The position numbers and the translations under genes were made by a program. From positions 1 to 21,646 of IMG/VR virus record IMGVR_UViG_3300006752_000278: a stretch of DNA of 21,646 nt; one strand, 5' to 3'. The DNA comes from a virus. A model generated the notes under the pieces. The model was not told where the DNA came from. It ran no database searches and saw nothing but the letters and a program-made list of their open reading frames with translations. Shown piece after piece: positions 446 through 17,931 of the stretch (positions are counted from its first letter, which is position 1; each line of letters begins with the position of its first letter).

Positions 446-475
446 AATGTGCGTTGCGCAAAGTCAGTCGTTAGC
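446..475 (+). promoter_or_regulatory. Candidate promoter/operator, TGTGCGTTGCGCA box before the first virion gene
   Basis: The gap 346-489 carries TGTGCGTTGCGCA at 448-460, about 30 bases before the ATG at 490. The same 13-mer occurs at 8003-8015 ahead of the capsid gene. Its first nine bases recur at 4755-4763, and TGTGCGT recurs at 17891-17897. It contains TTGCGCAA (454-461... as overlapping palindrome from T455) and short TGCG/CGCA arms. Position and recurrence suggest a phage promoter or operator; function is inferred. No convincing Shine-Dalgarno sequence, terminator or sigma-70 pair is seen in the rest of this 144-base gap. Confidence 0.4.
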
Positions 476-489
476 CTGATATTGTCTGC

Positions 490-1497
490 ATGTTAAAAGA
501 TCATCAGTCATTCATGCTAAAGGCTTCGTTCAACTCATTGCTGCCAGAATTTATGGACAGCGATAGTACGCATCTTAACGATCATGTATCGCCTGAGTTC
601 ATTGCTGTAATGCGCAAGGTTGCGGATCATTACTACGGCACCCCTGAGATACACCAGAAGCATTTAGCAAAGGCCACGGGTCAGACTGCAAGAGCATTAC
701 GCGCTGGGCAGATCAGTTACTCTATGGTCAATGATTTATTTAAGCAGTCTTCCTATTACGGCACCCGTAAATATGAGGGCATCCCCACAGATATTAAGCT
801 AACTCTTGGCAACTTTTCTTTAACCAAGGACAAAGAGACTGGTTGGTATAGAGCCAAGGATGGTTCTTACAAGGGTCATGACATCTATGACTTTGCCAAC
901 AACGCAGACTTCTTAAAAGAGTATGCGCCGGAAGTAACTGAGGTGCTTCTTGATATGGGTCTGCCGAAAGAAACCATTCACGCACTATATGATAGTTCGA
1001 TAGGACAAGCTGCTGCTGGTGTTGGTGCAACAGTAATGACTGGGACATTGCACCCTGCCGCTCGTATGTTTGGCGGCATCTTTATGAGCGATGAGAAAAA
1101 TCCAGAAGAAAGTGGCTCACAGTTTGTTACCTTTGACATTCCGGCAGAAGATGCTGTTGCGTTTGAGCGTCCATCTCCTCGCCCTCTTTGGTTTGAGGAT
1201 GAGAACATCGAGCCAGTGTTCCCTAACACGCCAATGGATGAAGAGCGCAAGGGAATGCTTGATACATTCCTATCTAATGTCTCTGATATTTTTATTAGCC
1301 CAGCACAGGCTGAGCCAATGAATGACTCGCCTCCTTCAATGCAAAAAGAACAGATGGTGATGCCAACTCCTGCACCAGAGCGTCCTGAGTCTGGTCAAAC
1401 TGAAATGAGCTTTGGTGAAGCCTTTGCCAACAATCGCGCAGCTGGCAATGATGAATTTACTTGGCGCGGCAACAGATACACAACGGAGATCGCATAA
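490..1497 (+). CDS. Virion-like protein of unknown function with C-terminal FGEAF...FTWRGNRY motif
   Basis: A 335-residue protein whose role I cannot name. The N-terminal half has a region with LGNFSLTKDKETGWYRAKDG followed by GHDIYDFAN, an 'LG.F......D.YDF' pattern I have seen in large phage virion proteins. A small-residue segment around residues 172-190 (GQAAAGVGATVMTGTLHPAA) could be membrane-active or simply flexible. Residues 240-305 are rich in Pro, Glu and Met and look disordered. The C-terminus (F308 onward) is FGEAFANNRAAG plus FTWRGNRYTT, a short module recurrent at the ends of phage structural proteins. The start is uncertain: neither the ATG at 490 nor the one at 514 has a clear ribosome site. 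It ends at a TAATG junction with the next gene, so it belongs to the morphogenesis operon. A virion or assembly role is inferred. Confidence 0.6.
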   Translation: MLKDHQSFMLKASFNSLLPEFMDSDSTHLNDHVSPEFIAVMRKVADHYYGTPEIHQKHLAKATGQTARALRAGQISYSMVNDLFKQSSYYGTRKYEGIPTDIKLTLGNFSLTKDKETGWYRAKDGSYKGHDIYDFANNADFLKEYAPEVTEVLLDMGLPKETIHALYDSSIGQAAAGVGATVMTGTLHPAARMFGGIFMSDEKNPEESGSQFVTFDIPAEDAVAFERPSPRPLWFEDENIEPVFPNTPMDEERKGMLDTFLSNVSDIFISPAQAEPMNDSPPSMQKEQMVMPTPAPERPESGQTEMSFGEAFANNRAAGNDEFTWRGNRYTTEIA

Positions 1498-1637
1498 TGC
1501 CTATGGGTAAAGGAACTTACGGATCACAAAGAGGTCGTCCTGCAAAGAAAGCTGCGGGGGCTAAGATGACTGCTGCGCAGAAGAAACTGCCAGCTGCACT
1601 TCAGAAAAAAATTATGGCTTCAAAGAAGAAAAAGTAA
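1497..1637 (+). CDS. Very basic 46-residue phage protein (MPMGKGTYGS type)
   Basis: A short gene that begins at a TAATG overlap and stops directly before the next ATG at 1638. The product starts MPMGKGTYGSQRGRPAKK, a recognisable opening of tiny proteins in marine phage genomes. By my count it has 12 lysines, 2 arginines and no acidic residue, and ends in a run of lysines (ASKKKK). Such composition suits binding to nucleic acid or to an acidic protein, but no activity is known to me. Tight packing between its neighbours and an uninterrupted, phage-typical sequence support it as a real gene despite its size. Confidence 0.75.
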   Translation: MPMGKGTYGSQRGRPAKKAAGAKMTAAQKKLPAALQKKIMASKKKK

Positions 1638-1937
1638 ATGACTAAGAAAACACCTGCATGGACACGCAAAGAAGGTAAGAACCCATCGGGCGGTTTGAAT
1701 GCGAAAGGTCGCGCTTCTTATAAGGGCGGCACATTGAAAGCCCCTGTCAAGTCTGGTGATAACCCCCGCCGAGCCAGTTTCCTTGCGCGTATGGGAAACA
1801 TGAAAGGCCCAGAGCGGGATGAGAAGGGGCGTCCCACGCGGTTACTCCTCTCCCTGCGTGCGTGGGGCGCTTCTTCGAAATCTGATGCTAAGTCTAAAGC
1901 TGCTGCAATTTCTAAGCGTAACAAGGCGAAAGCGTAA
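1638..1937 (+). CDS. Basic conserved phage protein (TPAWTRKEGKNP...GDNPRRASFLARMGNM type)
   Basis: A 99-residue basic protein of unknown function. It starts on the base after the previous stop and ends at a TAATG junction. Recognisable blocks are AWTRKEGKNPSGGLNAKGRA (residues 7-26), GDNPRRASFLARMGNM in the middle, and a C-terminal RLLLSLRAWGASS followed by a Lys/Ala-rich helix with SDAKSKAAAISKRN. I recall this block order from a conserved family of unknown function in phages and some bacteria, possibly the one filed as DUF6321; the number is from memory. By my count it has 26 Lys+Arg against 6 Asp+Glu. Its place between terminase subunits, with other basic small proteins, suggests a packaging or virion role, which is only inference. 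Confidence 0.78.
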   Translation: MTKKTPAWTRKEGKNPSGGLNAKGRASYKGGTLKAPVKSGDNPRRASFLARMGNMKGPERDEKGRPTRLLLSLRAWGASSKSDAKSKAAAISKRNKAKA

Positions 1938-2641
1938 TGGCTGGCTTTGACGGACTTGGGGGAAGTAGAAGCCAAGGTGGGTTTGGCGGGCGCGGGCGTG
2001 ACTATGATGGCCCATCGAAGCAAACAAAGAAGCAAACAAAGACGATTGCCAATGAAAAGAAAAACGCAATGGCAAAGACTACTAGCACAGCTAGTAAGTC
2101 TTCACTTAGTCCGGGGCAAGCTACAGCAATGTTTGGTCAAAAGCTTGGCGCACAGATATCTGGCATTAAAGGCATTACTGCTGAAGCTGGATCGAACCTT
2201 GCACAGCGTATGAACATTGGTCAGCTTAAGATGCAGGTAGACTCGTCGATTGATAGTGATATTGGCAAGATGCTTGCCTACGGCCCACTCGCTGCTGCGC
2301 TAGATACACTTGGCAAATTTTCTGTAAAGAATGTTTTGAATGAGATCATCGCTGGCACTGGCAAGATGGTCTACAATGACAACGGGCAAATCACTGGCGT
2401 TGCCAAAGACGGTAGAATGATTGCTGGATACGGTTTGGAACGACCGGGGCCGCAAGGTGATGGCCCCAGTAAAGGCACTTTCACCAGCGCTAAGAGTACA
2501 GAGGTTGGTAAAGAATCTAATGTCAACACATCTGTAGACTCTGGCTCTAAAGCTTCGTTAATCCCTGTAAGTAAAGTAGGTGGCACACCAGATTCATCTG
2601 GGTCTGGACGACGCTCAATGTTTGGAAGGAAGGTGCGCTAA
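1937..2641 (+). CDS. Hypothetical phage protein with Gly-rich N-terminus
   Basis: A 234-residue protein I do not recognise. The first 25 residues are Gly/Arg/Ser-rich (GGSRSQGGFGGRGRDYDG). A Lys/Gln/Thr stretch encoded by a perfect 12-base tandem repeat (2018-2029 and 2030-2041) follows. The central part, about residues 55-165, looks folded, with an Ala/Leu-rich helix (GKMLAYGPLAAALDTLGKF) and VKNVLNEIIAGTGKMVY. The C-terminal third is Ser/Gly-rich and ends RRSMFGRKVR. TAATG junctions at both ends tie it to its neighbours. The low-complexity ends around a small core fit a minor structural or accessory virion protein, but nothing in the sequence proves that. Confidence 0.72.
   Translation: MAGFDGLGGSRSQGGFGGRGRDYDGPSKQTKKQTKTIANEKKNAMAKTTSTASKSSLSPGQATAMFGQKLGAQISGIKGITAEAGSNLAQRMNIGQLKMQVDSSIDSDIGKMLAYGPLAAALDTLGKFSVKNVLNEIIAGTGKMVYNDNGQITGVAKDGRMIAGYGLERPGPQGDGPSKGTFTSAKSTEVGKESNVNTSVDSGSKASLIPVSKVGGTPDSSGSGRRSMFGRKVR
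2018..2041 (+). repeat. Perfect 12-bp tandem duplication inside a coding region
   Basis: AAGCAAACAAAG occurs twice back to back. The unit is four codons long, so gain or loss of a copy would keep the frame of the gene at 1937. Confidence 0.9.
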
Positions 2642-2811
2642 TGTCCAAGGTCAACGAAGCTGGCAATTACACAAAACCGTCAATGCGAAAGAGCTTGTTC
2701 AATCGGATTAAAGCTGGCGGCAAAGGCGGTCGCCCCGGTCAATGGAGTGCGCGTAAGGCGCAGATGTTAGCCAAAGCTTATAAAGCAAAGGGCGGTGGAT
2801 ACACATCATGA
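2641..2811 (+). CDS. Basic 56-residue conserved phage protein (KGGRPGQWSARKAQ motif)
   Basis: A small gene starting at a TAATG junction and overlapping the next by ATGA. The product reads VNEAGNYTKPSMRK, then LFNRIKAGGKGG, RPGQWSARKAQMLAKAYKAK and GGGY. This block is widely conserved in phages (cyanophages, marine podophages) and some bacterial proteins, usually as a stand-alone small protein. By my count 13 residues are Lys or Arg and one is acidic. The function is not known to me; the motif GKGG-PGQWSARKAQ is distinctive enough that the family assignment is firm even though the role is open. Confidence 0.8.
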   Translation: MSKVNEAGNYTKPSMRKSLFNRIKAGGKGGRPGQWSARKAQMLAKAYKAKGGGYTS

Positions 2812-3053
2812 AGAAGCCGCAGAAGTCATTAGTAAGCTGGACGAAGCAGAAGTGGCGCACCAAGTCAGGCAAACCATCTACGCAAGGTTCGAAAGCAACA
2901 GGGGAGAGATACTTGCCAGCTAAAGCGATTAAAAATATGTCGGCATCTCAGTACGCCGCATCAACGGCAAAGAAGCGTAAAGATACTGCGGCTGGCAAAC
3001 AGCATTCAAAGCAGCCAAAGTCAGCAGCAAAGACTGCAAAGAAATACAGATGA
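2808..3053 (+). CDS. Basic conserved phage protein (WRTKSGKPS...ERYLPAKAIK type)
   Basis: An 81-residue, strongly basic protein (by my count 23 Lys+Arg and 2 acidic). It has KSLVSWTKQKWRTKSGKPS at residues 6-24, GERYLPAKAIKNMSASQYA in the middle and a tail of AGKQHSKQPKSAAKTAKKYR. The same series of blocks is familiar from small conserved proteins of cyanophages and other marine phages and from a few bacteria; no biochemical role is known to me. It overlaps both neighbours by four bases (ATGA), so it is translated as part of the run from 1497 to the terminase. Binding to DNA or RNA is plausible from charge alone. Confidence 0.8.
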   Translation: MKKPQKSLVSWTKQKWRTKSGKPSTQGSKATGERYLPAKAIKNMSASQYAASTAKKRKDTAAGKQHSKQPKSAAKTAKKYR

Positions 3054-3247
3054 GTGCTTTCTTACATATGCTCAAACCAGAAGAGCGTGAGATACTGCGC
3101 ACTGTAGTTAAGCGTGTTCATTTCTCTCATTATCCCAAAGATCACTGCACCGATTATGAAGCAGACAAGCTTATATCATCTATCGGCCCTGACGTAGTTG
3201 AAACGATGATCAAGATCGGCAAGGACTACAAGGTAAATGAAATTTAA
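3050..3247 (+). CDS. Small phage protein preceding the large terminase
   Basis: A 65-residue protein with a helical N-terminus (MLKPEEREILRTVVKRVHF), then SHYPKDHCTDYEADKLISSI and a final helix with ETMIKIGKDYK. I associate this pattern (LKPEER...YPKD..TD.EADKLI) with small proteins placed directly before terminase genes in marine podophages. Unlike the four before it, it is not strongly basic. It overlaps the basic protein gene by ATGA and the terminase gene by 11 bases, so the two are likely co-translated. An accessory role in packaging is inferred from position only. Confidence 0.72.
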   Translation: MSAFLHMLKPEEREILRTVVKRVHFSHYPKDHCTDYEADKLISSIGPDVVETMIKIGKDYKVNEI

Positions 3248-4751
3248 ATACAAGCCTGATGGCGAAGTCCTCAAAGCTTTCATGAAGGATGATACATTCT
3301 TTCGTGGCATTCGCGGCCCTGTTGGTTCCGGCAAATCTGTTGGTTGTTGCGTTGAAGTGTTCAGACGCGCACTACAGCAAAAGCCAAATGAAGAGGGTAA
3401 GCGTAAAAGCAGATGGGCAATCATCCGTAATACAAACCCGCAGCTTCGCACTACCACTATCAAGACTTGGCTTGACTGGTTTCCCGAACAAGAGTGGGGC
3501 AAATTCCAATGGTCTGTGCCATATACCCACTGGATTAAGAAAGGCGATCTTGAGTTAGAAGTCATCTTTCTCGCTCTTGATAGGCCGGAAGATGTTAAGA
3601 AGCTGTTGTCATTAGAGCTAACTGGCATCTGGATTAACGAAGCAAGGGAAATCCCAAAGTCAATCATTGATGCTTGCACAATGCGTGTTGGCAGATACCC
3701 GTCTATGCGTGAGGGTGGGCCTTCATGGACTGGTGTGATTGCAGATACAAACGCGCCAGAAGAAGATCACTGGTGGCCTATCATGTCTGGTGAAGTTCCG
3801 ATACCTGATCACATTAGTAAAGAAGAAGCCAAGATGATGGTAAAGCCAGACAACTGGCGTTTCTTTACCCAACCTGCTGGCATGGTTGAGTCAAAAGATA
3901 ACGAGGGCAATGTAAAAGAATACAAGCCAAGTAAAGATGCTGAGAACCAGAAGCATATGCTGGCAAGCTATTATACCAACCTTGTGCAAGGTAAGGGAAA
4001 AAGCTGGATTGATGTTTATGTAATGAACAGGCTGGGGGCGATACAAGATGGCAAACCTGTTTATAATATGTTCGCGGCAGATCAGCATGTTGCGAATGAA
4101 GAGATTCCTGTGGCTGATGGTATGCCTGTGTTTGTTGGTTTGGATTTTGGCTTAACGCCAGCTGCAGTGTTTGGTCAGAAGGTCAGAGGCCGCTGGCTTA
4201 TCTTGCAAGAGATTGTAGCGTTTGACATGGGCATTGTTCGCTTTGCTGAACTGTTGCGCCAAGAGGTTGCTGTGCGGTATGGCAACTGCGAGATCAATAT
4301 CTTTGGTGATCCAGCTGGTGATTTCCGTGCGCAAACAGATGAGTCAACTCCGTTTCAAGTGCTGCGCGGTGCTGGTCTAAGAGCTAGACCAGCCCCAAGC
4401 AATGACGTTTCGTTGCGTTTAGAATCTGTAAGTGCATCGCTAACTCGTATGGTTGATGGCTTGTCTGGCTTCTTAATTGATCCGCGCTGCAAGGAATTGG
4501 TTAAGGGATTTGAGGGTGGGTATCAATATCGCCGCATACAAGTATCTGGTGAGCGATATGATGATAGGCCAGAGAAGAACCGCTTCTCTCATATCCACGA
4601 TGCGTTGCAGTATTTAATGCTTGGCGCTGGTGAAGGGCGCGGTGTTCTCGGAAACAATCAACCCCAGCGCATTGTACAAGCGCGGCGTGACTTCGATGTA
4701 TTCAACAGACAACCAAAGCAACGCAGACAGGGGCTTTGGTCACGCATGTAA
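3237..4751 (+). CDS. terL: Terminase large subunit (packaging ATPase/nuclease)
   Basis: Motor of DNA packaging: it docks on the portal, hydrolyses ATP to drive DNA into the prohead and cuts concatemers. The ATPase half has Walker A GPVGSGKS at residues 27-34 and a Walker B-like LTGIWINEAREIP with the likely catalytic Glu at 135. The RNase H-like nuclease half shows three metal-ligand acids in the expected order: D303 in VGLDFG, D358 in IFGDPAGD, and D455 in the FSHIHDALQYL block that usually closes the domain. At 504 residues it is somewhat shorter than T7 gp19 but complete. AAGGA at 3221-3225 and AGGT at 3231-3234 precede the ATG. The gene starts inside its upstream neighbour, and the small subunit lies at the left edge of the window. 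Confidence 0.96.
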   Translation: MKFKYKPDGEVLKAFMKDDTFFRGIRGPVGSGKSVGCCVEVFRRALQQKPNEEGKRKSRWAIIRNTNPQLRTTTIKTWLDWFPEQEWGKFQWSVPYTHWIKKGDLELEVIFLALDRPEDVKKLLSLELTGIWINEAREIPKSIIDACTMRVGRYPSMREGGPSWTGVIADTNAPEEDHWWPIMSGEVPIPDHISKEEAKMMVKPDNWRFFTQPAGMVESKDNEGNVKEYKPSKDAENQKHMLASYYTNLVQGKGKSWIDVYVMNRLGAIQDGKPVYNMFAADQHVANEEIPVADGMPVFVGLDFGLTPAAVFGQKVRGRWLILQEIVAFDMGIVRFAELLRQEVAVRYGNCEINIFGDPAGDFRAQTDESTPFQVLRGAGLRARPAPSNDVSLRLESVSASLTRMVDGLSGFLIDPRCKELVKGFEGGYQYRRIQVSGERYDDRPEKNRFSHIHDALQYLMLGAGEGRGVLGNNQPQRIVQARRDFDVFNRQPKQRRQGLWSRM

Positions 4752-4752
4752 T

Positions 4753-4782
4753 TTTGTGCGTTGTAATGCATTAATGCAGGGG
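4753..4782 (+). promoter_or_regulatory. Candidate late promoter/operator with TGCATTAATGCA palindrome
   Basis: The 65-base gap between the terminase and portal groups holds TGTGCGT at 4755-4761, a 3-base spacer and AATGCATTAATGCA at 4765-4778, followed by GGGG. TGCATTAATGCA is a perfect 12-base palindrome. The same pair of boxes, with a 5-base spacer, precedes the tail fibre gene at 17891-17916. Recurrence in noncoding DNA ahead of two gene groups argues for a promoter of the phage polymerase or an operator. Which one is not decidable here. A ribosome site GAGGT (4808-4812) follows. Confidence 0.5.
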
Positions 4783-4816
4783 TTACATCTAGGATTGCAT
4801 ATTATTTGAGGTAGCC

Positions 4817-5032
4817 ATGTGCATTTTTAAAAGTCCAAGAGCGCCAGCACCAGACCCAGCTGTGGAGGCTGAGCGTCAAGAACGTAAGGAAGCTGAGACA
4901 GCTACAACTAAAGCCAACAAGCAAGCAAACTTACAAAAAGCTGTAACAAATAAGAAGAAGGGTGGCAGTGCTACACATTCTTTGTTGTCAGGCTCTGGCG
5001 GCGGTATCGGCTTCTATAACGAGTATCTGTAA
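4817..5032 (+). CDS. Small phage protein upstream of the portal (MCIFKSP...GGGIGFYNEY type)
   Basis: A 71-residue protein with three parts: MCIFKSPRAPAPDP at the start, a charged helix rich in Glu, Lys and Ala (residues 15-48), and a Gly/Ser C-terminus SLLSGSGGGIGFYNEYL. Small proteins with this layout sit directly ahead of the portal gene in many podophages; I know of no assigned function. Cys2 is unlikely to mark a lipoprotein since no signal peptide precedes it. GAGGT at 4808-4812 supports the start. It is the first gene after the candidate promoter at 4753 and joins the portal gene through TAATG. Confidence 0.75.
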   Translation: MCIFKSPRAPAPDPAVEAERQERKEAETATTKANKQANLQKAVTNKKKGGSATHSLLSGSGGGIGFYNEYL

Positions 5033-6567
5033 TGCATGATGGAATTGCGAAGGATTATCTACGGCGTTATGACAAAGCTCTGGCTCATCGTCTTAACTTT
5101 GAAGCGTTGTTTGATGAGTGCTACGAGTACGCTCTTCCGCAACGAGAAGGTTTTACAAAGCTTACAGCAGGTCAGCGAAGAGATGATCGCATCTTTGACG
5201 AGACTGCTGTTGTCGGTACTCAAGAGTTTGCATCACGCTTGCAATCGGGTTTGGTTCCGAACTTTGCGCGATGGGCAGACTTGGTTGCTGGTAGCGAGGT
5301 GCCGAGTGATCAGACTGAGGCTATTGATAATCAGCTTGAAGAGGTTACTGAATACGTCTTTCAGGTATTGCAGAACAGCAATTTTGGACAAGAAGCCCAC
5401 GAAGCATTCCTTGATCTTGCTGTGGGAACAGGCTGTTTGCTGGTTGAAGAAGGTGATGCGCTTAACCCGATAAGGTTTAATGCCATCCCGCTACCGCAAC
5501 TGGTTCTTGAAAACGGCGCAGATGATCGCATTGATCATGTGTATCGTGAGCGTGAGTTGCGCAACAAAGACATATTGATTGCTTACCCTAACGCTATTCT
5601 TTCCAAAATGATGATGGAAAAAATTGCAAAGGCTCCCGACACCAAGACCAAGATTATCGAAGTAGTTTGCAGACTCTACGACAAGCCTAACCAAGAGCGT
5701 AATGCTTTCTATGTCATCTGCAAAGAAACCCAAGAATTAATTCATCAGGATATATTTGAAGGTGCTGGCTCAAATCCTTTTGTGTGTTTCAGATGGTCAA
5801 AGGCAGCGGGTGAAGTCTACGGGCGCGGCCCACTTGTCAACGCGCTTAGTGCGATTAAAACAACTAACCTCACGATTGAGTTGGTTCTTGAGAATGCGCA
5901 GATGGCTATCTCTGGCATATACCAGATGGACGATGACGGAGTAATAAACACAGACTCTATTAATCTGGTTCCCGGAACCATCATTCCAAAAGCTCCTAAC
6001 TCTCAGGGCTTGCAGCCAATCCGTGCTGCTGGTTCGTTTGATGTTGCAAATCTTATTCTTGGTGACATGCGCAACAATATTAAACGTGCATTGTATAATG
6101 ATATGTTAGGCGACCCCAACAAAACACCAGCAACAGCAACCGAAGTTGCAGAGCGCATGGCTGATCTATCTCGCCGTATCGGTTCTGCCTTTGGCAGATT
6201 GCAAGCTGAGTTTGTTCAGCCAGTGTTGCAGCGCGTTGTTTTTATTTTGAAGAAGCAGGGGCGCATCGATGTCCCAACATTAAATGGCAGAGACGTAAAG
6301 GTTCGCTCAGTATCTCCATTGGCACAGGCGCAAGCTAATCAAGATATTGCATCAGTAGATCGTTTCTTAGAAATGGTTGGTGGTCGATTTGGGCCACAGA
6401 TGGTGAACCTGCTTGTCTCATCAGAAGAAGCATCAGCTTACTTGGCGAAGAAGTTTGGTGTGCCGGATAATCTAATCCGTGACTCGCATGAGCGTCAGGC
6501 TCTTGCGCAAGCTATGCAGCAGATGTCTGCACAGCAGCAAGGCATGGAACCGCCAACGCAGGGGTAA
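5032..6567 (+). CDS. Portal (head-to-tail connector) protein, T7 gp8-like
   Basis: Forms the dodecameric ring at one head vertex through which DNA enters and leaves; nucleates prohead assembly and binds the terminase and tail tube. At 511 residues it is close to T7 gp8 (536). Family signatures include the N-terminal helices with LFDECYEYALPQREGF (about residues 26-41), DDRIFDETAVVGTQEFASRL, FARWADLVAG, and the stem-region block YNDMLGDPNKTPATATEVAE (around residue 360), whose ATATEV part is very typical of these connectors. It starts at TAATG with no good ribosome site of its own, so translation probably depends on reinitiation from the small gene upstream. Confidence 0.94.
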   Translation: MHDGIAKDYLRRYDKALAHRLNFEALFDECYEYALPQREGFTKLTAGQRRDDRIFDETAVVGTQEFASRLQSGLVPNFARWADLVAGSEVPSDQTEAIDNQLEEVTEYVFQVLQNSNFGQEAHEAFLDLAVGTGCLLVEEGDALNPIRFNAIPLPQLVLENGADDRIDHVYRERELRNKDILIAYPNAILSKMMMEKIAKAPDTKTKIIEVVCRLYDKPNQERNAFYVICKETQELIHQDIFEGAGSNPFVCFRWSKAAGEVYGRGPLVNALSAIKTTNLTIELVLENAQMAISGIYQMDDDGVINTDSINLVPGTIIPKAPNSQGLQPIRAAGSFDVANLILGDMRNNIKRALYNDMLGDPNKTPATATEVAERMADLSRRIGSAFGRLQAEFVQPVLQRVVFILKKQGRIDVPTLNGRDVKVRSVSPLAQAQANQDIASVDRFLEMVGGRFGPQMVNLLVSSEEASAYLAKKFGVPDNLIRDSHERQALAQAMQQMSAQQQGMEPPTQG

Positions 6568-6570
6568 TCT

Positions 6571-6825
6571 ATGAACAAACTCAGATTGGATGGGTTTGCT
6601 AGAGGTGATGAGGAAGACAAACGTGTGTCGCTAGATATAGCGGCATTGTTTGCGTCACCTACTGGCGGCTCCGTTCTAAAGTATTTGCGCTCGATAACCA
6701 TTGAAGCAGTCAATGGCCCGAACGTAACGGACGCTGAACTTCGTCATATGGAAGGGCAGCGGTATCTTGTGGGGCTGTTAGAGCGCCGCATCAAACATGG
6801 ACAGAAGGTAAAACAAGATGAGTGA
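6571..6825 (+). CDS. Bbp19-like small phage protein
   Basis: An 84-residue protein with the pattern 'ALFASPTGGSVLKYLR' followed by 'EGQRYLVGLLERRI'. This resembles the Bbp19-like family found between portal and scaffold or capsid genes in BPP-1-type podophages. No activity is known to me; position suggests a head-assembly accessory role. AGGGG at 6560-6564, inside the end of the portal gene, is a good ribosome site for the ATG at 6571. Its last eight bases overlap the scaffold gene, so the two are probably translated together. Confidence 0.7.
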   Translation: MNKLRLDGFARGDEEDKRVSLDIAALFASPTGGSVLKYLRSITIEAVNGPNVTDAELRHMEGQRYLVGLLERRIKHGQKVKQDE

Positions 6826-7549
6826 AACAGATAATGTAGAAGCAGAAGGCTCAATGCTTTCAGCCGAAGCACCTGTTGACGGTAGCCAATCTGGAACCGT
6901 GGATAGGCCGGAGTGGCTGCCAGAAAAGTTTAAGACGCCAGAAGATTTGGTGACTTCATACTCTTCATTGGAAAGCAAGCTTGGCAAAGGCGAAGAAGAA
7001 TTACGCAAAACTCTTGCAGAAGAAATGTTGCAAGAGACATACAAAGACAGACCAGAGACTGTTGGTGACTATCAACTGCCAGAAATCTTAAACGATGAAG
7101 AAGCTGTCGATAATCAACTTTTAAATTGGTGGTCACAGTTTTGTTACGATCACGGGTATGGGCAAGACAAGTTTGCCGATGGCATTCAAAAATATGCAGA
7201 AGCATTGAATGGTGACATGCCTGATCTTGATGCCGAGCGTACAAGGCTTGGCGAGAACGCAGATGCGCGTATTGAGTCTGTGCAGCTGTGGGCAAATAAG
7301 TTTTTTGATGAAAGCCAGATGGGCGCTCTCGAAAGATTAGGACAAACGGCAGAAGGTATAGAAGTCTTGGAAAAGGTTATGGACGCATTAAAAGGATCAG
7401 GCATTGACAGTAATGCTGAAGCAAGCGCTCAGCTAACTGAGAATGATCTGCGTAGCATGATGAATGATGAGCGCTATTGGAAGCAAGGAGCCAGAGACAC
7501 AGCATTTATAAAGCAGGTGCAAGATGGCTTCTCTAAACTTTACAGGTAG
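6818..7549 (+). CDS. Scaffolding (capsid assembly) protein
   Basis: Acidic 243-residue protein placed between portal and capsid genes, as expected of the internal scaffold that guides prohead assembly and then leaves before DNA filling (T7 gp9 role). The segment RPEWLPEKFKTPEDLVTSYS (about residues 29-48) is a strong marker of this family. The N-terminus is acidic and disordered, the middle has alternating charged helices, and the C-terminus (DLRSMMNDERYWKQGARD...QDGFSKLYR) resembles the capsid-binding end of such proteins. AAGG at 6805-6808 precedes the ATG. It overlaps the next gene by 26 bases. Somewhat shorter than T7 gp9. Confidence 0.9.
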   Translation: MSETDNVEAEGSMLSAEAPVDGSQSGTVDRPEWLPEKFKTPEDLVTSYSSLESKLGKGEEELRKTLAEEMLQETYKDRPETVGDYQLPEILNDEEAVDNQLLNWWSQFCYDHGYGQDKFADGIQKYAEALNGDMPDLDAERTRLGENADARIESVQLWANKFFDESQMGALERLGQTAEGIEVLEKVMDALKGSGIDSNAEASAQLTENDLRSMMNDERYWKQGARDTAFIKQVQDGFSKLYR

Positions 7550-8066
7550 CGGTCAATACAATGAGATAGACATTGTTAAGTCTACCTCAGATCATTCAAG
7601 TTACTTGCAGCACACTCTGCGAAATACAGATCTGCGTGAATGCATGATCGCTGGTGCAACGCCTTGGAGGGCGTTGCATCTCCCTCTCTCAATAAAGGGA
7701 GCGGAAACATATACCGTACTGTCAAATGACAAACCAATATGCATGTTTGGCACGGTTCCAATAGACAATGAAGAAGCCACTATTGCATCTATATGGTTGT
7801 TGGGCAGTTACGATCTTAACGATCACAAAAGAACATGGATGCGTCTTACACATCCTGTCTTTGATTACTTCCAAGAAAAGTATGACATCCTAGAAAATGT
7901 AGTTCCTATCGACCACGAAAAAACAATTCGCTGGTTACAGTTTGCTGGCTGTTTGTTTTCAAACACAGCGACCGTTGTGAATGGCTACCCTGTAGCAAGA
8001 TTTGTGCGTTGCGCATATGACATAGAAGTGTCATTTGAAGAGGATGAACGGCCTATTTCTAACTGA
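7524..8066 (+). CDS. T7 gp13-like (DUF2833-type, GNAT-like) protein
   Basis: A 180-residue protein resembling the phage Gp13/DUF2833 family, which looks related to GNAT acetyltransferases but without a proven enzymatic role; T7 gp13 is a minor internal protein needed for virion morphogenesis. Visible marks are TDLRECMIAGATPWRALH (residues about 36-52), the core strands MFGTVPIDNEEATIASIWLL (from residue 74), and ENVVPIDHEKTIRWLQFAGC (about 124-143), which corresponds to the end of a GNAT-like fold. It starts 26 bases inside the scaffold gene, with AGGTG just upstream. In T7 this gene follows gp12; here it lies between scaffold and capsid. The candidate regulatory 13-mer at 8003-8015 lies in its 3' part. 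Confidence 0.72.
   Translation: MASLNFTGSGQYNEIDIVKSTSDHSSYLQHTLRNTDLRECMIAGATPWRALHLPLSIKGAETYTVLSNDKPICMFGTVPIDNEEATIASIWLLGSYDLNDHKRTWMRLTHPVFDYFQEKYDILENVVPIDHEKTIRWLQFAGCLFSNTATVVNGYPVARFVRCAYDIEVSFEEDERPISN
8001..8020 (+). promoter_or_regulatory. Candidate promoter/operator upstream of the capsid gene
   Basis: TGTGCGTTGCGCA at 8003-8015 is identical over 13 bases to the copy at 448-460, and TTTGTGCGTTG is identical to the copy at 4753-4763. It lies in the coding end of the gp13-like gene, 138 bases before the capsid ATG. This site could give the capsid gene its own promoter, as is common for the most abundant virion protein. Being inside a gene makes it weaker evidence than the intergenic copies. 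Confidence 0.33.
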
Positions 8067-8152
8067 CAGCCCCGACAGGGATAACTGGACGACGAGCGGA
8101 ATGGACAACCGGAACGAGTGTAATTTTAACTTTGATATAAGGACTGTAAAAA
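8067..8152 (+). other. Leader of the major capsid gene
   Basis: An 86-base noncoding leader, long for this compact region. It has a GC- and purine-rich first part (8072-8118) with short imperfect repeats (GGACGACGAGCGGAA and GGACAACCGGAACGAG) and an AT-rich second part. AAGGA at 8139-8143 is a good ribosome site nine bases from the ATG. No stable hairpin was found by eye. Confidence 0.5.
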
Positions 8153-8965
8153 ATGGCGAATACAATTGATGTAGCCTTCATTAAGCAGTTTGAGTCCGAA
8201 GTTCACATGGCTTATCAGCGCATGGGTTCTAAATTGAAGAACACTGTCCGCAATAACAATGTGAGTGGTAGCGTTGTTCGTTTCCAAAAGATCGGCTCAG
8301 GCACAGCTTCAACTAAAGCGCGTAACGGTAATGTGACTCCAATGGAGCTTGTACATACTACCGTAGAAGCAACCATGGCTGACTTCTATGCAGCTGAGTT
8401 TATCGACAAGTTGGATGAATTGAAAACCAACATCGATGAGCGTCAGGCTGTTGCTAAGTCATCTGCTGCTGCTCTTGGTCGCAAGACTGACGAGATCATC
8501 TACACAGCATTGGACGCTGGTGCAAACGCAACACAGATCAACGATACTGGTAGTGCGATTGGAAAAGCTGACATCCTTACACTGTTTGAAACCTTCGGTG
8601 CAGCAGACCTGCCAGAAGACGGACAGCGGTATCTGGCTATGTCACCTGCTGGTTTTGCTGACTTGTTTAATATCGACGAGTTTGCATCATCCGATTATGT
8701 CGGTGATCAGAACCTGCCGTTTGCTGGTGGTATGACCATGAAGCAATTCATGGGCTTTAACATCTTCTCAACTTCAGCAATCACTGCTGGTAAGAACATT
8801 GCTTACCACACATCTGCTGTTGGCCTTGGTATCAACTCAGACGTTAAGACTGAGCTGAACTATGTGCCTGAGAAAGTTGCACACCTTGCAACTTCAATGA
8901 TGTCAATGGGCGCTGTTGTTATCGATGATAACGGTGTCTATGAAGTCCTCGACGACAATACATAA
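8153..8965 (+). CDS. Major capsid protein
   Basis: Head shell subunit, 270 residues, placed directly after the scaffold/gp13-like pair. It starts MANTIDVAFIKQFESEVHMA and has GSKLKNTVRNNN, a run VRFQKIGSGTASTKARNG near residues 43-60, DELKTNIDERQAVAKSSAAALGRKTDE in the helix region, then AMSPAGFADLF and SSDYVGDQNLPFAGG. The order fits the HK97-fold capsid family used by BPP-1/HMO-2011-like podophages rather than T7 gp10 itself, which is longer (345). It has the best ribosome site in the region (AAGGA), a long leader and a strong hairpin after the stop, all consistent with high expression. Confidence 0.9.
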   Translation: MANTIDVAFIKQFESEVHMAYQRMGSKLKNTVRNNNVSGSVVRFQKIGSGTASTKARNGNVTPMELVHTTVEATMADFYAAEFIDKLDELKTNIDERQAVAKSSAAALGRKTDEIIYTALDAGANATQINDTGSAIGKADILTLFETFGAADLPEDGQRYLAMSPAGFADLFNIDEFASSDYVGDQNLPFAGGMTMKQFMGFNIFSTSAITAGKNIAYHTSAVGLGINSDVKTELNYVPEKVAHLATSMMSMGAVVIDDNGVYEVLDDNT

Positions 8966-8972
8966 GGATGTG

Positions 8973-8998: not shown

Positions 8999-9006
8999 CT
9001 TAATAT

Positions 9007-9591
9007 ATGAGTACAGCAGCAAATTCAGCAATTGATATAGCGGCAAGAGCATTAACGCTTATTGGCGCTAACCCTATTTCTTCTTTTGCTGACGCTAGTA
9101 CCGAAGCAACTATAGCTAACAACATGTATGAAGATGTGGCTCGCTCATCTCTTTGTGCTACTCGTTGGCGCTTTGCTACTAATCAAGCGCAACTTAATGC
9201 ATTGACCGCCACTCCTACTGGGCGTTTCGATATAGCGCATCAATTGCCAAACGATTTGCTGATGTTACATGCGGTAACTGTAAACGACTTACTTGTTCAG
9301 TATTCTGTATATGGTGACAAAGTGTTTTCGGATACGACCGCGAGTGATGTGGTTGTTGCTGATTACACATTCCGTGCAAGCGAAGTTGATTGGCCTTCTT
9401 ATTTTACATTGGCTGTGCAGTTTCAACTGGCAGCAATCTTTGCATCATCGATTGCAAGAGATGATGGCCTCACACAAGTCATGGAAACAAAGGCTGATCG
9501 CCTTATGGCAAAGGCTAGAAACTTAGATAGCCAACAGCAAACAACAAGAAAGCTAGTTACGAATAGGTTTAGAACTGAAAGGTTAAGTTAA
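9007..9591 (+). CDS. Tail tubular protein A (T7 gp11-like)
   Basis: Gatekeeper/adaptor ring that joins the portal to the nozzle of the short tail. The length of 194 residues matches T7 gp11 (196). Family marks are the N-terminal helix SAIDIAARALTLIGANPISS (about residues 7-26), NNMYEDVARSSLCATRWRFA (residues 38-57), PNDLLMLHAV, and the C-terminal helices YFTLAVQFQLAAIFASSIAR followed by a Gln/Thr-rich basic end. No Shine-Dalgarno sequence is visible before the ATG (CTCAACTTAATAT); the only GGAGG-like run is locked in the hairpin at 8973. The stop overlaps the next start as TAATG. Confidence 0.94.
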   Translation: MSTAANSAIDIAARALTLIGANPISSFADASTEATIANNMYEDVARSSLCATRWRFATNQAQLNALTATPTGRFDIAHQLPNDLLMLHAVTVNDLLVQYSVYGDKVFSDTTASDVVVADYTFRASEVDWPSYFTLAVQFQLAAIFASSIARDDGLTQVMETKADRLMAKARNLDSQQQTTRKLVTNRFRTERLS

Positions 9592-11828: not shown

Positions 11829-12244
11829 TGGCTGATCCATTTACCATAGGCTTAATGGCCTTTTCTACTTTGTACTCAATGAAAGCTGCATCTGATCAGG
11901 CATCGATGCAAGCGCAGCAATATGAGCAAGCGCGTAAAGATGCAATCCTGCAAGGCAAGGAACGGCATAACCAAGCCATATCTAATATGTCTGCTCATCT
12001 ATCAGCCAACAATGCAATGGCTGGCTTTATGTCTGGTGACAACAGAAGCATCAATCGTATCAGAGAAAAGATAAAGCGTGATGCTGCAACTGATGCTGGT
12101 CGCATCAATGCAAGCACTGTGGCTGCTGCTTCTCAGAACAGATTGGCAGGACAGATTGCTGTGCTTCAAGGCAGGAACAGAAGCACGGCAAGTCTAATTG
12201 ATGGCGTGTCATCTGCCTATGCACATGCATCATTGTTCAAATAG
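11828..12244 (+). CDS. Internal virion protein, T7 gp14-like
   Basis: A 138-residue, Ala/Gln/Ser-rich helical protein in the gp14 position between the nozzle and two large internal proteins. T7 gp14 is ejected first and forms a pore in the outer membrane. The N-terminus DPFTIGLMAFSTLYSMKAAS is moderately hydrophobic, as in these proteins. The rest is a long helix region with AQQYEQARKDAILQGKERHN and the C-terminal QNRLAGQIAVLQGRNRSTAS. It is shorter than T7 gp14 (196). The assignment rests on position, composition and general pattern, since the family is poorly conserved. Confidence 0.78.
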   Translation: MADPFTIGLMAFSTLYSMKAASDQASMQAQQYEQARKDAILQGKERHNQAISNMSAHLSANNAMAGFMSGDNRSINRIREKIKRDAATDAGRINASTVAAASQNRLAGQIAVLQGRNRSTASLIDGVSSAYAHASLFK

Positions 12245-12251
12245 GTGACAC

Positions 12252-14402
12252 ATGGTTGGCGTTATTAAATCTAAAGGCCCACAAGAACAGACTAGAGCAG
12301 CTGGTGTTCTGCAAATAAACACAGGGGCTGATCAGGTTGCGTCTGCTATTGGACGCGCTGCTGATCGTGTTGGTCAGGTTGCTTATCAAAAGTTTGAAGA
12401 TGAGCAAACCGAACTTGGCAGACAAACTGCCAAGAACATGAAGATGCGTGATGTTGACGGTAATATTGTTTATACAGACCCAACACAAGATATGAGCCGT
12501 GTTGCGCGTAACGCAGCAAGACCAATCATTGAGGATAATTATCAACGACAACTAGCTATCGATTTTGATGGCGCATTACTTGATCTTCGGCGTGATACAG
12601 CAGCGCATCAAAACAATCCTGAGAAGTTTAGAGAGCTTGCGCAGCTGAAGCTTGAAGGAATGATGAATGCCATTCCGCAAGATTTTGCTGGGGTTGGCTC
12701 TGCTGTTCTTGACCGTGTTGGTGCTGAACGCACTATGGATCATTATAATCAATTAACACGCGCAAAGATAAGAGAAGAAGAAGCTGTTGCTATTAGCAAC
12801 ATGGCTATTGATATCGGTGATGATATCAAAAACATATCGGCTCTGATTAGAAGTGGCGATGCAGACATTGCAAAGGATGTGGCTGAGAGTGCGCGGCGCA
12901 AAGCTGAATTAGTTATTGGTATGGGCGGCACACTGCAGCAGCAGAAAGCTTTAATCCGCTCTATCGATACTGTTGTATATGGCGAAGCTGCTACAGCTAC
13001 TGCTAATGCTATGATTAATGAGGGTCTTTATGAATTGCTTGACCCAATGGCTGAAGCTTTTGAGGGCGGTCAAGTTCTTCGTGCTGATATGGAAATTGAA
13101 GTTAATGGCGAGAAGACAACGCTTGGTGCTGCCTTTAATGCTAGGGGCATATCAGATGAGGCTCTTGCTAACATTGAAGATATAGAAGTGCGCGGCGCTG
13201 TTGCTGCTGCTATCCGCACCAGAGCAAACCAATACACTCAAGACAGATCAGCTGACGCTAAGATGGTTGCCATGATGTCTGAGGTAAACAATCAGCTGAC
13301 TGGCAATGGCCTCGGTGGTACTGGCAGTAAAAACGAAGACCTTATGCAAGACTACTTTACTTCTAAAGGTCTTGATATGGCGAACATCACAAGTGCAGAA
13401 GCTGCTGCTATGGCGCAAGACCCAAACTCAGAGCTTGGCAAGTTCTTGCGCAATGGTCAGGTGTTTCCTACTGGTATCAAACGTCAGCTTGTAAATGCTT
13501 ATACTGCTGGTGCTTTACCTAAAACATCTGACGAGCTTCGCAACTTGCTTACTCTGTGGGGTACCGGGTCTATGGGTATAACGCCTCAAGGCCCAGTTGT
13601 AAGAGACAAGATTAATAATTCAGATGCTAATGCATTCTGGGCTAACGTAAGTAACTACGCTCAGACTTATGGAATGGAAGCTGCTACAGAATACGCAACA
13701 TCTATGACAGAAGCTTCTACTATACGCGCTGACCTTGAGGGGCAAGCGCGTAACAAGCTTGGCAATCCAAACAAAGATGCTTACGCACAGATTAGGCAAA
13801 GATGGATTGATGATGGTTGGATAGAAGGCACAAATCCACGCGCAATGTCTCGTTTGAAAACGATTGCTATTCGCGCCTATGCTTCACTGCCAATCGATGA
13901 AGCTGATGATTATGTGAACACTGCATATGAAACATTATTTGCGCCAACAGATTACATCATAACCCCTGCTATTATGGGGGCTGCGAGACAGGATCGTTCT
14001 GAGTTTGCGCCAGAGCGTTTCTATCCTGATGACATGATGTCTACCTTTACCCAGCATGTGAACAAGAAGCTGTCAAAGGCTAGTGGTTTTTATGAGCTTG
14101 GTGAGACTGCGTTCTTGTATCCATCACCCGACTCAACCAACTCATCTGTTACATGGCAGGTGCTGGATCGCCAAGGCAAGCCAATCTTAAATTCAAATGG
14201 CTCAATCCTTATTAGATCGCAAGAGTTAAATCAGAACAACACTATGGCAAAGAAGTTTGCTGATGCTGTGGCTCAGAAGATTGAGGATGCTCAAGCTATC
14301 CGTAACAGAGCCATGACATATGGCAACAACTTAGCTGAGACAAAAGGCAAGGGCCTTAACATTGGTTCTGGATTAGTCGATTCACTGCTTGGTAGACAAT
14401 AA
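12252..14402 (+). CDS. Internal virion protein, T7 gp15-like
   Basis: A 716-residue, mostly helical protein between the gp14- and gp16-like genes; T7 gp15 (747) forms part of the internal core and, after ejection, the periplasmic tube. The N-terminus has INTGADQVASAIGRAADRVG (residues 22-41), a pattern seen at the start of gp15-like proteins, followed by long amphipathic helices. The C-terminal third contains SVTWQVLDRQGKPILNSNGS, a small beta unit resembling the 'W.V.D..G.P..D..G' piece of related phage proteins. No enzymatic motif is seen. AGGTGA at 12243-12248 precedes the ATG. It joins the next gene via TAATG. Identification is mainly by position and size. Confidence 0.8.
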   Translation: MVGVIKSKGPQEQTRAAGVLQINTGADQVASAIGRAADRVGQVAYQKFEDEQTELGRQTAKNMKMRDVDGNIVYTDPTQDMSRVARNAARPIIEDNYQRQLAIDFDGALLDLRRDTAAHQNNPEKFRELAQLKLEGMMNAIPQDFAGVGSAVLDRVGAERTMDHYNQLTRAKIREEEAVAISNMAIDIGDDIKNISALIRSGDADIAKDVAESARRKAELVIGMGGTLQQQKALIRSIDTVVYGEAATATANAMINEGLYELLDPMAEAFEGGQVLRADMEIEVNGEKTTLGAAFNARGISDEALANIEDIEVRGAVAAAIRTRANQYTQDRSADAKMVAMMSEVNNQLTGNGLGGTGSKNEDLMQDYFTSKGLDMANITSAEAAAMAQDPNSELGKFLRNGQVFPTGIKRQLVNAYTAGALPKTSDELRNLLTLWGTGSMGITPQGPVVRDKINNSDANAFWANVSNYAQTYGMEAATEYATSMTEASTIRADLEGQARNKLGNPNKDAYAQIRQRWIDDGWIEGTNPRAMSRLKTIAIRAYASLPIDEADDYVNTAYETLFAPTDYIITPAIMGAARQDRSEFAPERFYPDDMMSTFTQHVNKKLSKASGFYELGETAFLYPSPDSTNSSVTWQVLDRQGKPILNSNGSILIRSQELNQNNTMAKKFADAVAQKIEDAQAIRNRAMTYGNNLAETKGKGLNIGSGLVDSLLGRQ

Positions 14403-17400
14403 TGCCAGTTAAATTAGAGAACAGCTACACGCCGCCACTTGATACAGGTGAATTAGACGGGCCTTTATCGACACCTTCTTTTGGTGAAGCGTTCCGCGCT
14501 ACCTTTGCTTATCAATACCAGCCGTTGATTGATCAGGTTGAGGAGATGTCTCTCTTTAATAATCGATCATACGACCCAGAGTTTGATCCGTTTGCACAAG
14601 CTGGTGGTTATGAGCAGTACCTCGATGAGATAGCTGTTGCTAAAGATCAAGAGCATCTTGATTACATCAAACGCAATATCGATGAGCGTTTGTATGAGAA
14701 AGACATACTGAACAGATCAGGCATTAGTGCTGGTACTGTTATCGCTAGTTTGATTGACCCACTTAACATTGCGTTTGCGCTGCCTATCTTTGGGCAACTT
14801 GGCTTGTTGGCTAAAGGCGGGATGACTATACGTCAGGCTGCGATGGCTAGTGCAAGGGGCGGCTTTGTTACTGGGGTTGCATCAGAAGCTATTCGTGCGC
14901 CATTTGATAAGACGGTGACTGATGTTGAGGTTGCTAATAACCTGTTAGCAACAACAGCATTTGGTGCTGCACTTGGTTCTATTCCTGCTGTGGCACGCGC
15001 TGGATACAACTATGCACGCAAAACAAAAGAGATGCGTGACGCAGAGTTTCAAGGGCGTGGTTCTTTGCCTGATAAAATAGATGGCATGCGCGTCACCAGA
15101 AAAGAAACACCGAAGAATAGTGATCGCACTAATGCTGTGTCTGCCAAAGGCAAGACAATTAACATTGATGAGGAGTTGTTAGACATTGAGTTTAATAAAC
15201 GTCCTTGGACACAGCCAGAAGTCGAAGGGGCTACCCCTCTAAGAGAAACAGACTTTCTCACACCCGAACAATGGGGTGAGTTTTCAGTTATAAAAGAGGT
15301 AGTCAAATCCCAAAACAAGCGTAAACGCGGTGAGTCACAGGCAGCATACGTTGATAGGACTAATAAGATAGCCCTAGATCGCTCTAGGAGCGGCAGGGAG
15401 CTTGAGGAAACGCCTCTGACTAGGACTAATGCATGGCGTATGTTAAGCACCCCTAGCAAGCGAATCCTGGACGATGGCGATAACACGATGAAAGAGTTTG
15501 TTCACCGTGTTGTTGGCGTTGATCACATATCAACACAGAACCTAGCCAAAGGTCAGGCATCTACGCAGTCTATTAGCCGCAGATCAAAGACACACATTGG
15601 TAGATTCATTGGTCATCGCAACAGAATGATGGAGCATTGGGCGCAAGATCAGCTAGGTCGTTCTCAATCTACTCGCTTGTTTGGATACAACACAGATAAC
15701 ATCGTGGCTAAATGGACTAACGCTAAGACATTTGACGAATGGTACGAAGCTGTCAACGAAGCGCGTCTTGTGCAGCAAGCTGGTCAGTTTAATAAGTATG
15801 ATTCTACCTTTAGCAAAGACTTCCGTGCAGCAATGCGCGATGTGGATGCGTTCTTTGATGAATACAAACTAGACTTGCAGCATCATAACTTGCTTGCCAC
15901 GACTGAGGCTTTGCAAACTAAGAGAGCAAGAGCGCGAGTTGACATTGAATACTTTGAGAACATGCAGAAAGACCGTGGCTTAACCAAGGGGCAAGAGCTA
16001 CGCCTTGATCGGTTGCGTGATCAAGAAGCTTTCTATGATGACTTGATTAAGAACTCAATCACTGAAAACTACACAATGCCGATCTACTACGACAAGGCAA
16101 AGCTGAGTAGCGATCCTGCACTGCGTGAGCGTCTTGTTCGTGTGTTTGAAGAATGGATTAGGAACAATCCTATTACGTCTGTCTGGGATGACAAGGCTGG
16201 CAAGTTTGTAATGATTGATCCAAAGGAACGGTCTGACCCACGCATTACTGCTGAGAATGCTGTGGCTTCTATTATGGAAGAGGGTGATCCTGTTCTTATT
16301 GGTGAGATGAATGCTGTGCCAAAAGGCAAACACCTGCGTCACAGACAGATTAACATACCTGAGTATTTGATCTCTGACTTTATAATCAAAGACAGCCGCA
16401 TTGCTCGTTCTTATTCTGCGCGTGTTGGTAAGCGCATTGAATGGGCGCGGCAGTATGGCAATCAAACGATTGATGACATCCTCGATGACGCTGAAGTACG
16501 CATGCGTGAGAAAGGATTGGATGAAAAGAAGATTGTTTCGCTTCGTGCTGACATGGCGTTTGAGTATGAGCGTGTGATGGGTGAGCATTTGAAAGACCCG
16601 TCACGCTTGGATGCGCAGACTGCAAGAGTAATTAAAGAAGCTACTGGTATTGCTTACCTTGATACTGCTGCTTATGCATCTGTGACTGACGCTGGCATGA
16701 TTGTTATGGAGCGCGGCTTTAACAAGATATATCAGGGGCTGCGCTCTGAGGTTGACCGCAACATGCTGCGCAAGAATGCAAAGCTTATCCCTGCCACTGG
16801 TGAGAGGACTGAGCTTGCGCTTGGTGGTGCGCAGCAACGTCTGATTGCTGACAACATTGACGGGCTTGAGCCTACTGCTGTTGAGCGTGTTCTTAATCCT
16901 ATAACCAGAGCTTACTACAACATACCGATCATCGGTAACGGACTTGGCACTGTTACACATATCTTCAAAACTATTGATGGTTCATATCGTGCCAGTGATT
17001 TGATGGAGCATGTAGTCAATATGGCTAACGGCACTATCAAGGAAGCTGATGCACGTTACCTGCTTCGCATGGGTATATCTGAAAGTGATGCTAGAATTAT
17101 GGCAAAGCTGCCATATGAAAAGGGTGACAATATTCTGCACCCCAACATAGACAAGTGGCCTAACAAAACTAAAGCAGAGCGTGAGCTTGTTCTTAAATGG
17201 AACACAGCTATGAATGCTGGCATTGGTAACACCATCTTACATGCCACATCATTTGATAAGCCGCGCGTTATGGATGGTGTGGTTTATGCACGGTATCGCC
17301 CATGGATGAACAAGATCGGATTTAGTGAAGCAGATATCGATCAACGTGCTTCAAGCTCAAGCATCAAACTAGTGCGCATTGAGTCACAGGCTATGACGTT

Positions 17401-17890
17401 TCCGTTCCAGTTTTATAACTTCATGCTTGGCGCAACATCACGCATAACCGCAGGCATGGCAGACCCGATGCGCAGGCATCGTGTATCAGGTGCAGTTGCG
17501 CTACTTGGCCTCGGCTACGTTTCATTGCAGTTAAAGAAAGACAGCTGGTGGTTCGATGCACGTTCAGATGAAGAAGTATTTCAGCGGGTAATAGATCAGT
17601 CTGGCATCTTTGCCGTATATGCAGACCTAGCTTACACAGCAACACATGCAGCCATAGGCACAGGTATGCTGAGTGCAGACGATTCATTGCTAAAGCCAAA
17701 GTATAATCCGACACTCTTCGATGCCATTACAGAGCCGTTAGGCGCTGGCCCCGGAATGATATTCAGCAACCTAAAAGGCGCTATGGATTACATAAACGGC
17801 GACACAACAGAAGCTGCAAGAGAGTTCAAATACAATCTGCCAATACTTCCAATAATGGCAATGGCAGCAGACTTCTTCAGTGACGATTAA
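14402..17890 (+). CDS. Large internal virion protein, T7 gp16-like, without visible transglycosylase domain
   Basis: The largest product (1162 residues) and last of the three internal virion genes, the place of T7 gp16 (1318), which crosses the inner membrane and helps pull in DNA. The N-terminus has PSFGEAFRATFAYQYQPLID (about residues 25-44), followed by a hydrophobic stretch SLIDPLNIAFALPIFGQLGL (about 116-135) and an Ala/Gly-rich one, VANNLLATTAFGAALGSIPA. These are candidate membrane-active segments. The long middle is charged and helical (for example residues 500-560). Near the C-terminus are MNKIGFSEADIDQ, PFQFYNFMLGATSRITAG and another hydrophobic pair, as in gp16-like proteins. T7 gp16 begins with a lytic transglycosylase domain; I see no such catalytic motif here. 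The gene overlaps the previous stop as TAATG. Confidence 0.85.
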   Translation: MPVKLENSYTPPLDTGELDGPLSTPSFGEAFRATFAYQYQPLIDQVEEMSLFNNRSYDPEFDPFAQAGGYEQYLDEIAVAKDQEHLDYIKRNIDERLYEKDILNRSGISAGTVIASLIDPLNIAFALPIFGQLGLLAKGGMTIRQAAMASARGGFVTGVASEAIRAPFDKTVTDVEVANNLLATTAFGAALGSIPAVARAGYNYARKTKEMRDAEFQGRGSLPDKIDGMRVTRKETPKNSDRTNAVSAKGKTINIDEELLDIEFNKRPWTQPEVEGATPLRETDFLTPEQWGEFSVIKEVVKSQNKRKRGESQAAYVDRTNKIALDRSRSGRELEETPLTRTNAWRMLSTPSKRILDDGDNTMKEFVHRVVGVDHISTQNLAKGQASTQSISRRSKTHIGRFIGHRNRMMEHWAQDQLGRSQSTRLFGYNTDNIVAKWTNAKTFDEWYEAVNEARLVQQAGQFNKYDSTFSKDFRAAMRDVDAFFDEYKLDLQHHNLLATTEALQTKRARARVDIEYFENMQKDRGLTKGQELRLDRLRDQEAFYDDLIKNSITENYTMPIYYDKAKLSSDPALRERLVRVFEEWIRNNPITSVWDDKAGKFVMIDPKERSDPRITAENAVASIMEEGDPVLIGEMNAVPKGKHLRHRQINIPEYLISDFIIKDSRIARSYSARVGKRIEWARQYGNQTIDDILDDAEVRMREKGLDEKKIVSLRADMAFEYERVMGEHLKDPSRLDAQTARVIKEATGIAYLDTAAYASVTDAGMIVMERGFNKIYQGLRSEVDRNMLRKNAKLIPATGERTELALGGAQQRLIADNIDGLEPTAVERVLNPITRAYYNIPIIGNGLGTVTHIFKTIDGSYRASDLMEHVVNMANGTIKEADARYLLRMGISESDARIMAKLPYEKGDNILHPNIDKWPNKTKAERELVLKWNTAMNAGIGNTILHATSFDKPRVMDGVVYARYRPWMNKIGFSEADIDQRASSSSIKLVRIESQAMTFPFQFYNFMLGATSRITAGMADPMRRHRVSGAVALLGLGYVSLQLKKDSWWFDARSDEEVFQRVIDQSGIFAVYADLAYTATHAAIGTGMLSADDSLLKPKYNPTLFDAITEPLGAGPGMIFSNLKGAMDYINGDTTEAAREFKYNLPILPIMAMAADFFSDD

Positions 17891-17920
17891 TGTGCGTGGA
17901 GCAATGCATTAATGCATGAT
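17889..17920 (+). promoter_or_regulatory. Candidate late promoter/operator before the tail fibre gene
   Basis: The 41-base gap after the gp16-like stop contains TGTGCGT (17891-17897), spacer GGAGC and AATGCATTAATGCA (17903-17916). Here the palindrome extends to a perfect 14-mer, ATGCATTAATGCAT (17904-17917). It matches the element at 4755-4778 with a spacer two bases longer. GAGG at 17923-17926 is the ribosome site for the fibre gene. Confidence 0.5.
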
Positions 17921-17931
17921 ATGAGGCTATT

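Follow-up and report, generated by a model that had tools for sequence, protein, structure and literature searches.

The repeats described here probably belong to late promoters that are served by the host RNA polymerase, activated by a phage protein through the word TGTGCGTTG and, in temperate members of the family, overlaid with operators of the prophage repressor. In the genomes compared, the word is conserved, its spacing to downstream elements is constrained, the palindrome found behind two of the copies is identical to predicted immunity operators, and these operators are lost together with the repressor and integrase. The window, by which we mean the whole stretch analysed, is a 21.6 kb virus-record fragment from a small podovirus. 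Open reading frames and protein matches place its terminase, portal, capsid, tail, internal virion and fibre genes all in one direction. The closest isolate is Pelagibacter phage Hodr, with 62% portal identity, and no near match at the DNA level was found among annotated phages. Relatives were gathered by portal, internal virion, terminase, gene-2 and fibre protein scans, giving more than 250 related loci. One of these, L129, is 100% identical to the window in gene 2, where the two overlap, and extends ~7.5 kb past its left end. A second, G009, has an internal virion protein 100% identical to that of the window and carries the same repressor as L129 plus an integrase.

TGTGCGT lies on the + strand at 448, 4755, 8003 and 17891, as the original prediction had placed it. 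The longer matches it had listed also hold: TGTGCGTTGCGCA is exact at 448 and 8003 (copies 1 and 3), AATGCATTAATGCA is exact at 4765 and 17903 (copies 2 and 4), and TTTGTGCGTTG is common to copies 2 and 3. Copies 1, 2 and 4 are intergenic, and copy 3 falls in the end of an ORF (7524–8066), ~138–150 bases before the capsid ORF. The full word TGTGCGTTG is exact on the + strand at 448–456 (copy 1, site B), 4755–4763 (copy 2, site C) and 8003–8011 (copy 3, site D), and the variant TGTGCGTGG occupies 17891–17899 (+) (copy 4, site E). Downstream of copy 1 is an ORF of no assigned function with homologues in relatives (490–1497, +). Copy 2 comes right after the TerL stop, and the first ORF of the portal group (4817–5032, +) starts 62 bases past the motif, with a GAGG ribosome site. 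Copy 3 precedes the major capsid gene (8153–8965, +; PHROG major head protein, 3e-58), and copy 4 the tail fibre gene (17932–19773, +; PHROG tail fibre, 3e-46), whose ATG lies 41 bases past the motif. A fifth TGTGCGT, at 13783, is antisense within a gene. The extra GCGCA of copies 1 and 3 means little, as it is not conserved.

By themselves the window repeats are not above chance, and their significance comes from the relatives. The window holds 5 TGTGCGT against 4.2 expected, and its 16 repeated 13-mers (fibre repeats left out), compared with ~4.5 in a Markov model, are mostly unrelated to the motif. Such counts are what four chance matches in a short window would give. However, among the sites sampled in relatives, TGTGCGT is present at 83/183 portal-group sites (TerL ends), 90/136 capsid sites and 76/94 fibre starts. 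Across a large section of the family TGTGCGTTG stands directly behind the TerL stop codon, invariant within that clade, and the DNA beyond diverges. Motif-bearing near-complete genomes mostly hold 3–5 late-strand copies of TGTGCGTTG, and their opposite strand has hardly any, the chance expectation being 0.1–0.35 per strand per genome. Further sites were found before terS (site A; L129:7493, beyond the left edge of the window) and before a lysis-type gene (site F). At the capsid site, carriers spell the word as TTT GTG CGT TGY, encoding FVRC in the preceding gene, whilst FVRC relatives without the word use other Val codons, GTT or GTA. Site D thus fixes synonymous codons, which we count in favour of a late promoter. 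Both the predicted enrichment ahead of late gene groups and the predicted retention in relatives are borne out: the word recurs at the same boundaries with a late-strand bias, and is conserved at syntenic sites down to ~69% portal identity. This refutes coincidence as the source of the repeats and leaves it a negligible probability. Eight related contigs have zero or stray copies of TGTGCGTTG, and Hodr has none. In motif-less genomes no alternative shared word was prominent before late genes, in a search that did not rank the true word top in 2/4 control genomes.

The original prediction of late promoters or operators is thus supported by the position of the word at late-group boundaries, on the late strand, across relatives, and the DNA that follows it is promoter-like in several classes. 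Numbered from its first T as 0, the word itself is invariant to position 6, a result of how the sites were collected, and nearly invariant at 7–8. Fibre sites carry TG at 26–27 and TA at 29–30 (TGnTA at offset 26 in 13/17), terS sites carry TGnTA at 28, and gene-2 sites (B) carry NATATT at 30–35, with TGnTA at offset 29 in 6/14. Pooled, TGnTA falls within positions 24–35 at 26/81 sites, compared with 4.2 ± 2.0 in shuffles. The −10-like box stands out at A, B and E but is weak at C and D, class C being without a clear TGnTA. In the window we identify GATATT at 478–483 (+), with a predicted transcript start at ~489–490, at the ATG and so leaderless; a weak TACATC at 4784–4789 (+; positions 29–34); and the extended −10-like TGATATGAG at 17917–17925 (+; TGnTA at offset 26), with a predicted transcript start at ~17932. 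Moreover, start codons in classes B, C and E lie mostly either 41–43 bases or 53 bases and more from the motif (mostly +41 to +43 at site B, and +41 in 11/17 fibre sites), and the interval 44–52 is empty. Such an empty interval is consistent with transcription starting at 41–42, the mRNA being either leaderless or provided with a leader that has room for a ribosome site. Counting against this, fibre sites with an ATG at +41 also have a ribosome site, which would be missing from a leaderless transcript; the spacing from motif to −10 also differs by 2–3 bases among classes.

For the four copies we hypothesise the following. Each would act as a late promoter for the host RNA polymerase, with TGTGCGTTG spanning ~−41 to −33 and replacing the −35 element (or containing it, as TTG), followed 17–20 bases later by a −10 box that is often extended (TGnTA). 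Transcripts would begin 41–42 bases past the motif, often with the start codon's own A as their first base, and several mRNAs would be leaderless. Both promoter activity and start sites are predicted here from sequence. A sigma-70 consensus scan of the window missed all four sites, and only site A has TTGAC; an activator-free host sigma-70 promoter was rejected, the sites lacking a near-TTGACA −35 and a near-TATAAT −10. A promoter for a T7-type (single-subunit) polymerase was likewise rejected, as the early regions of G001 and G005 contain no ORF above ~350 aa and so have no room for such a gene. A PF00940 profile search for this polymerase gave zero matches, its positive control also being unmatched. 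At the terS promoter (L129:7493–7555, left of the window) we observe two conserved G-runs downstream, AAAAGGGGGGAACACAAGGGGGG, the first at the expected discriminator and the second at the position of a ribosome site.

The palindrome in copies 2 and 4 is distinct from the word: it is a predicted prophage-repressor operator that is added in temperate members only. L129 encodes a repressor-like gene (4011–4583, +) and a divergent cro-like gene (3705–3923, −), and the interval between them holds TGCATTTATGCA, TGCACATGTGCA and TGTATTAATGCA. Repressor-bearing relatives similarly have one to several TGCAnnnnTGCA sites between repressor and cro. A weight matrix trained on ten repressor-cro sites of relatives, with late promoters excluded, picks out just two positions in the window, 4766 and 17904, against 0.7 expected. 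These are copies 2 and 4, where TGCATTAATGCA occupies the promoter spacer at 4767–4778 (+; score 20.4, +11 from the motif) and 17905–17916 (+; score 17.5, +13). Because this is the same sequence as the repressor-cro palindromes, we assign it as a predicted operator. The offset of the motif-linked operators is fixed across genomes, at +11 before the portal group (C), +13 before the fibre gene (E) and +15 before the lysis gene (F). The original prediction had proposed two subtypes of element; two forms do exist, but the matrix and the repressor-linked distribution indicate a single kind of late promoter, either bare or with an operator superimposed.

Motif-linked late operators occur in 8/9 records with repressor and integrase, the window being scored as repressor-bearing on account of its sister contigs, which have the gene, and in 0/13 repressor-less motif-bearing genomes, whilst TGTGCGTTG is retained in both groups. 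G004 was scored from its fibre and lysis sites, since its portal site falls off the contig, and G030 is repressor-bearing yet has no late operator above threshold. The eight genomes with a repressor are also the eight with an integrase. A tree built from portal plus TerL requires four changes of the repressor label, and operator change tracks repressor change in 3–4 of the four independent pairs, never in reverse, a number of events that falls short of significance (p ~0.125–0.25). In temperate members, the phage of the window included, the palindromic operator TGCAnnnnTGCA would lie between the motif and the −10 at the portal-group, fibre and lysis promoters, and in the window at copies 2 and 4. 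The prophage repressor (and/or Cro), bound at TGCAnnnnTGCA, would then silence the early promoters and these late promoters directly; binding to TGCATTAATGCA itself is deduced from its sequence. The joining of the late word to a repressor operator suggests a mechanism for keeping virion genes silent in dormancy. Three genomes (G001, G006 and G042) are without repressor, integrase and late operators and resemble natural virulent derivatives of temperate phages. In one subclade, extra perfect operators follow the capsid-site motif and precede the capsid gene (G004 3290, G007 20492 and G029 5999). A TGTGCGTT word also occurs before cro, on the early strand and with an operator in the spacer, at G005 10505 (−) and in the cro promoter of G030.

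We sought an activator by comparing gene-family distribution over 21 motif-bearing and 8 motif-less genomes. The best fit is an XRE protein of ~84 residues encoded after cro, present in 20/21 motif-bearing and 2/8 motif-less genomes. It is absent from the other six motif-less genomes, and its recognition helix is replaced in the remaining two and in Hodr. Among motif carriers the helix-turn-helix GCxSSLIHKWEQxKRxPSGF is near-invariant, G041 being the most divergent. An AlphaFold model (pLDDT 87) places the recognition residues in helix 46–53 and resembles C.AhdI, the nearest solved structure, and P22 C2. Since gene and helix both track the motif across the family, we propose this 84-residue protein as the best candidate for a putative activator that would bind TGTGCGTTG and recruit polymerase in lytic growth. 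Its co-occurrence with the motif amounts to only two or three independent losses, and weaker similar profiles are seen for the cro-like gene (18/21 vs 3/8) and the Erf gene (19/21 vs 3/8).

A host activator or alternative sigma factor could instead read TGTGCGTTG, given that these phages depend on the host polymerase and that several related contigs are held in alphaproteobacterial assemblies, though others are binned in unrelated taxa. Alphaproteobacterial phage-like clusters under host-driven control offer a parallel, in which GafA acts with RNA polymerase omega (PMC9638019). However, bacterial assemblies with related contigs are not enriched in TTTGTGCGTTG outside the phage contigs, and where the motif is lost the phage XRE gene is lost or altered too, so that a host factor appears unlikely. 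Within the phage, a small protein resembling DnaA domain IV (L129:5847–6215, −; PF08299, 4.8e-10) adjoins a DUF932 gene in the phage of the window and in some other members, TGTGCGTTG resembles the 9-base DnaA box TGTGGATAA, and GafA provides a precedent with a DnaA-like domain (PMC9638019). The distribution of the small protein tells against it as the activator: fewer than half of the motif-bearing genomes tested encode it, as do the motif-less G012–G015, and we regard this candidate as very improbable.

The word might alternatively work in RNA, as a leader element for antitermination, processing or translation. In several gene classes the start codon lies 41–42 bases away, which would suit such a role, as would a potential hairpin, TGCA-N4-TGCA, behind the word at sites C, E and F. 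However, the palindrome arms keep their sequence beyond what pairing would require, the palindrome is missing from late sites of repressor-less genomes, and the distance is variable at sites A and D and in a distant site C clade. The hairpin was dropped because the palindrome matches the immunity operators, and an Rfam search of the window found no known RNA element. We consider a function in RNA quite unlikely and retain the activator-dependent late promoter.

Single phage activators of several dispersed late operons, acting with host polymerase through a common word near −35, are found in P2 (Ogr) and Mu (C). Their sites are two-fold symmetric or larger. Mu C transactivates four late promoters (PMC4461284). 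The regulon proposed here shares with these systems its single activator, dispersed late operons, word near −35 and use of host polymerase, but its word would be 9 bases, asymmetric and overlapping the −35, and some promoters would also carry a prophage operator. T4 middle promoters have a 9-base MotA box in place of the −35, plus an extended −10. The proposed late promoters would share both elements, but the T4 promoters are middle rather than late, word and fold differ, and T4 has no repressor operator. In fold, the modelled candidate activator resembles the small XRE controller (C) proteins of restriction-modification systems, such as C.AhdI. C proteins bind two-fold symmetric sites, whereas here only one half-site-like word is conserved. 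L5-type stoperators of mycobacteriophages are also prophage repressor sites outside the immunity region (PMC9283540), but they are asymmetric, numerous and stop elongation, whilst the predicted sites here are few, palindromic and at a fixed offset in late promoters. The P3 promoter of GIL01 is a temperate-phage late promoter controlled by a phage-encoded regulator; unlike here, it involves LexA-type regulators and one late promoter, and is not described as having a repeated late word (PMC6182141). GafA/GafYZ of alphaproteobacterial phage-like clusters likewise pair a dedicated activator with host polymerase, but have DnaA-like and sigma-like domains rather than XRE, and a family-wide repeated word is not described in the sections of those reports consulted (PMC9638019, PMC11150451).

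Late promoters and repressor operators are each known; the combination, prophage operators at fixed offsets in activator-type late promoters that are absent from sisters without repressor and integrase, was not found in the literature searched, and a search on prophage repressors acting on late promoters and on isolate Hodr returned little. In Skadi, another polymerase-less pelagiphage, only few sigma-70-like promoters are reported, near replication genes (PMC10504331). Late gene control in these polymerase-less marine podoviruses appears undescribed, and the word and candidate activator make it directly testable. At its broadest, the proposal is of a family-wide late regulon with one small XRE activator, a 9-base asymmetric word and several leaderless virion mRNAs, in which temperate members repeatedly lay or lose a fixed-position prophage operator that puts early and late genes under one repressor. 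In this full form it is tentative, and we hold it at slightly below an even chance. The word offers a handle on predicting transcription units in uncultured genomes, and helps to recognise temperate members by their sequence and to judge if the prophage repressor governs their late genes.

Lastly, two features of gene content were observed. An ArdC-type anti-restriction protein that includes a metallopeptidase domain is encoded in G005 (L097:2836–3687). The fibre gene of the window and the glycine-rich protein behind it contain degenerate 30-base (10-residue) repeats, at 18448–19247 and 20279–20780.
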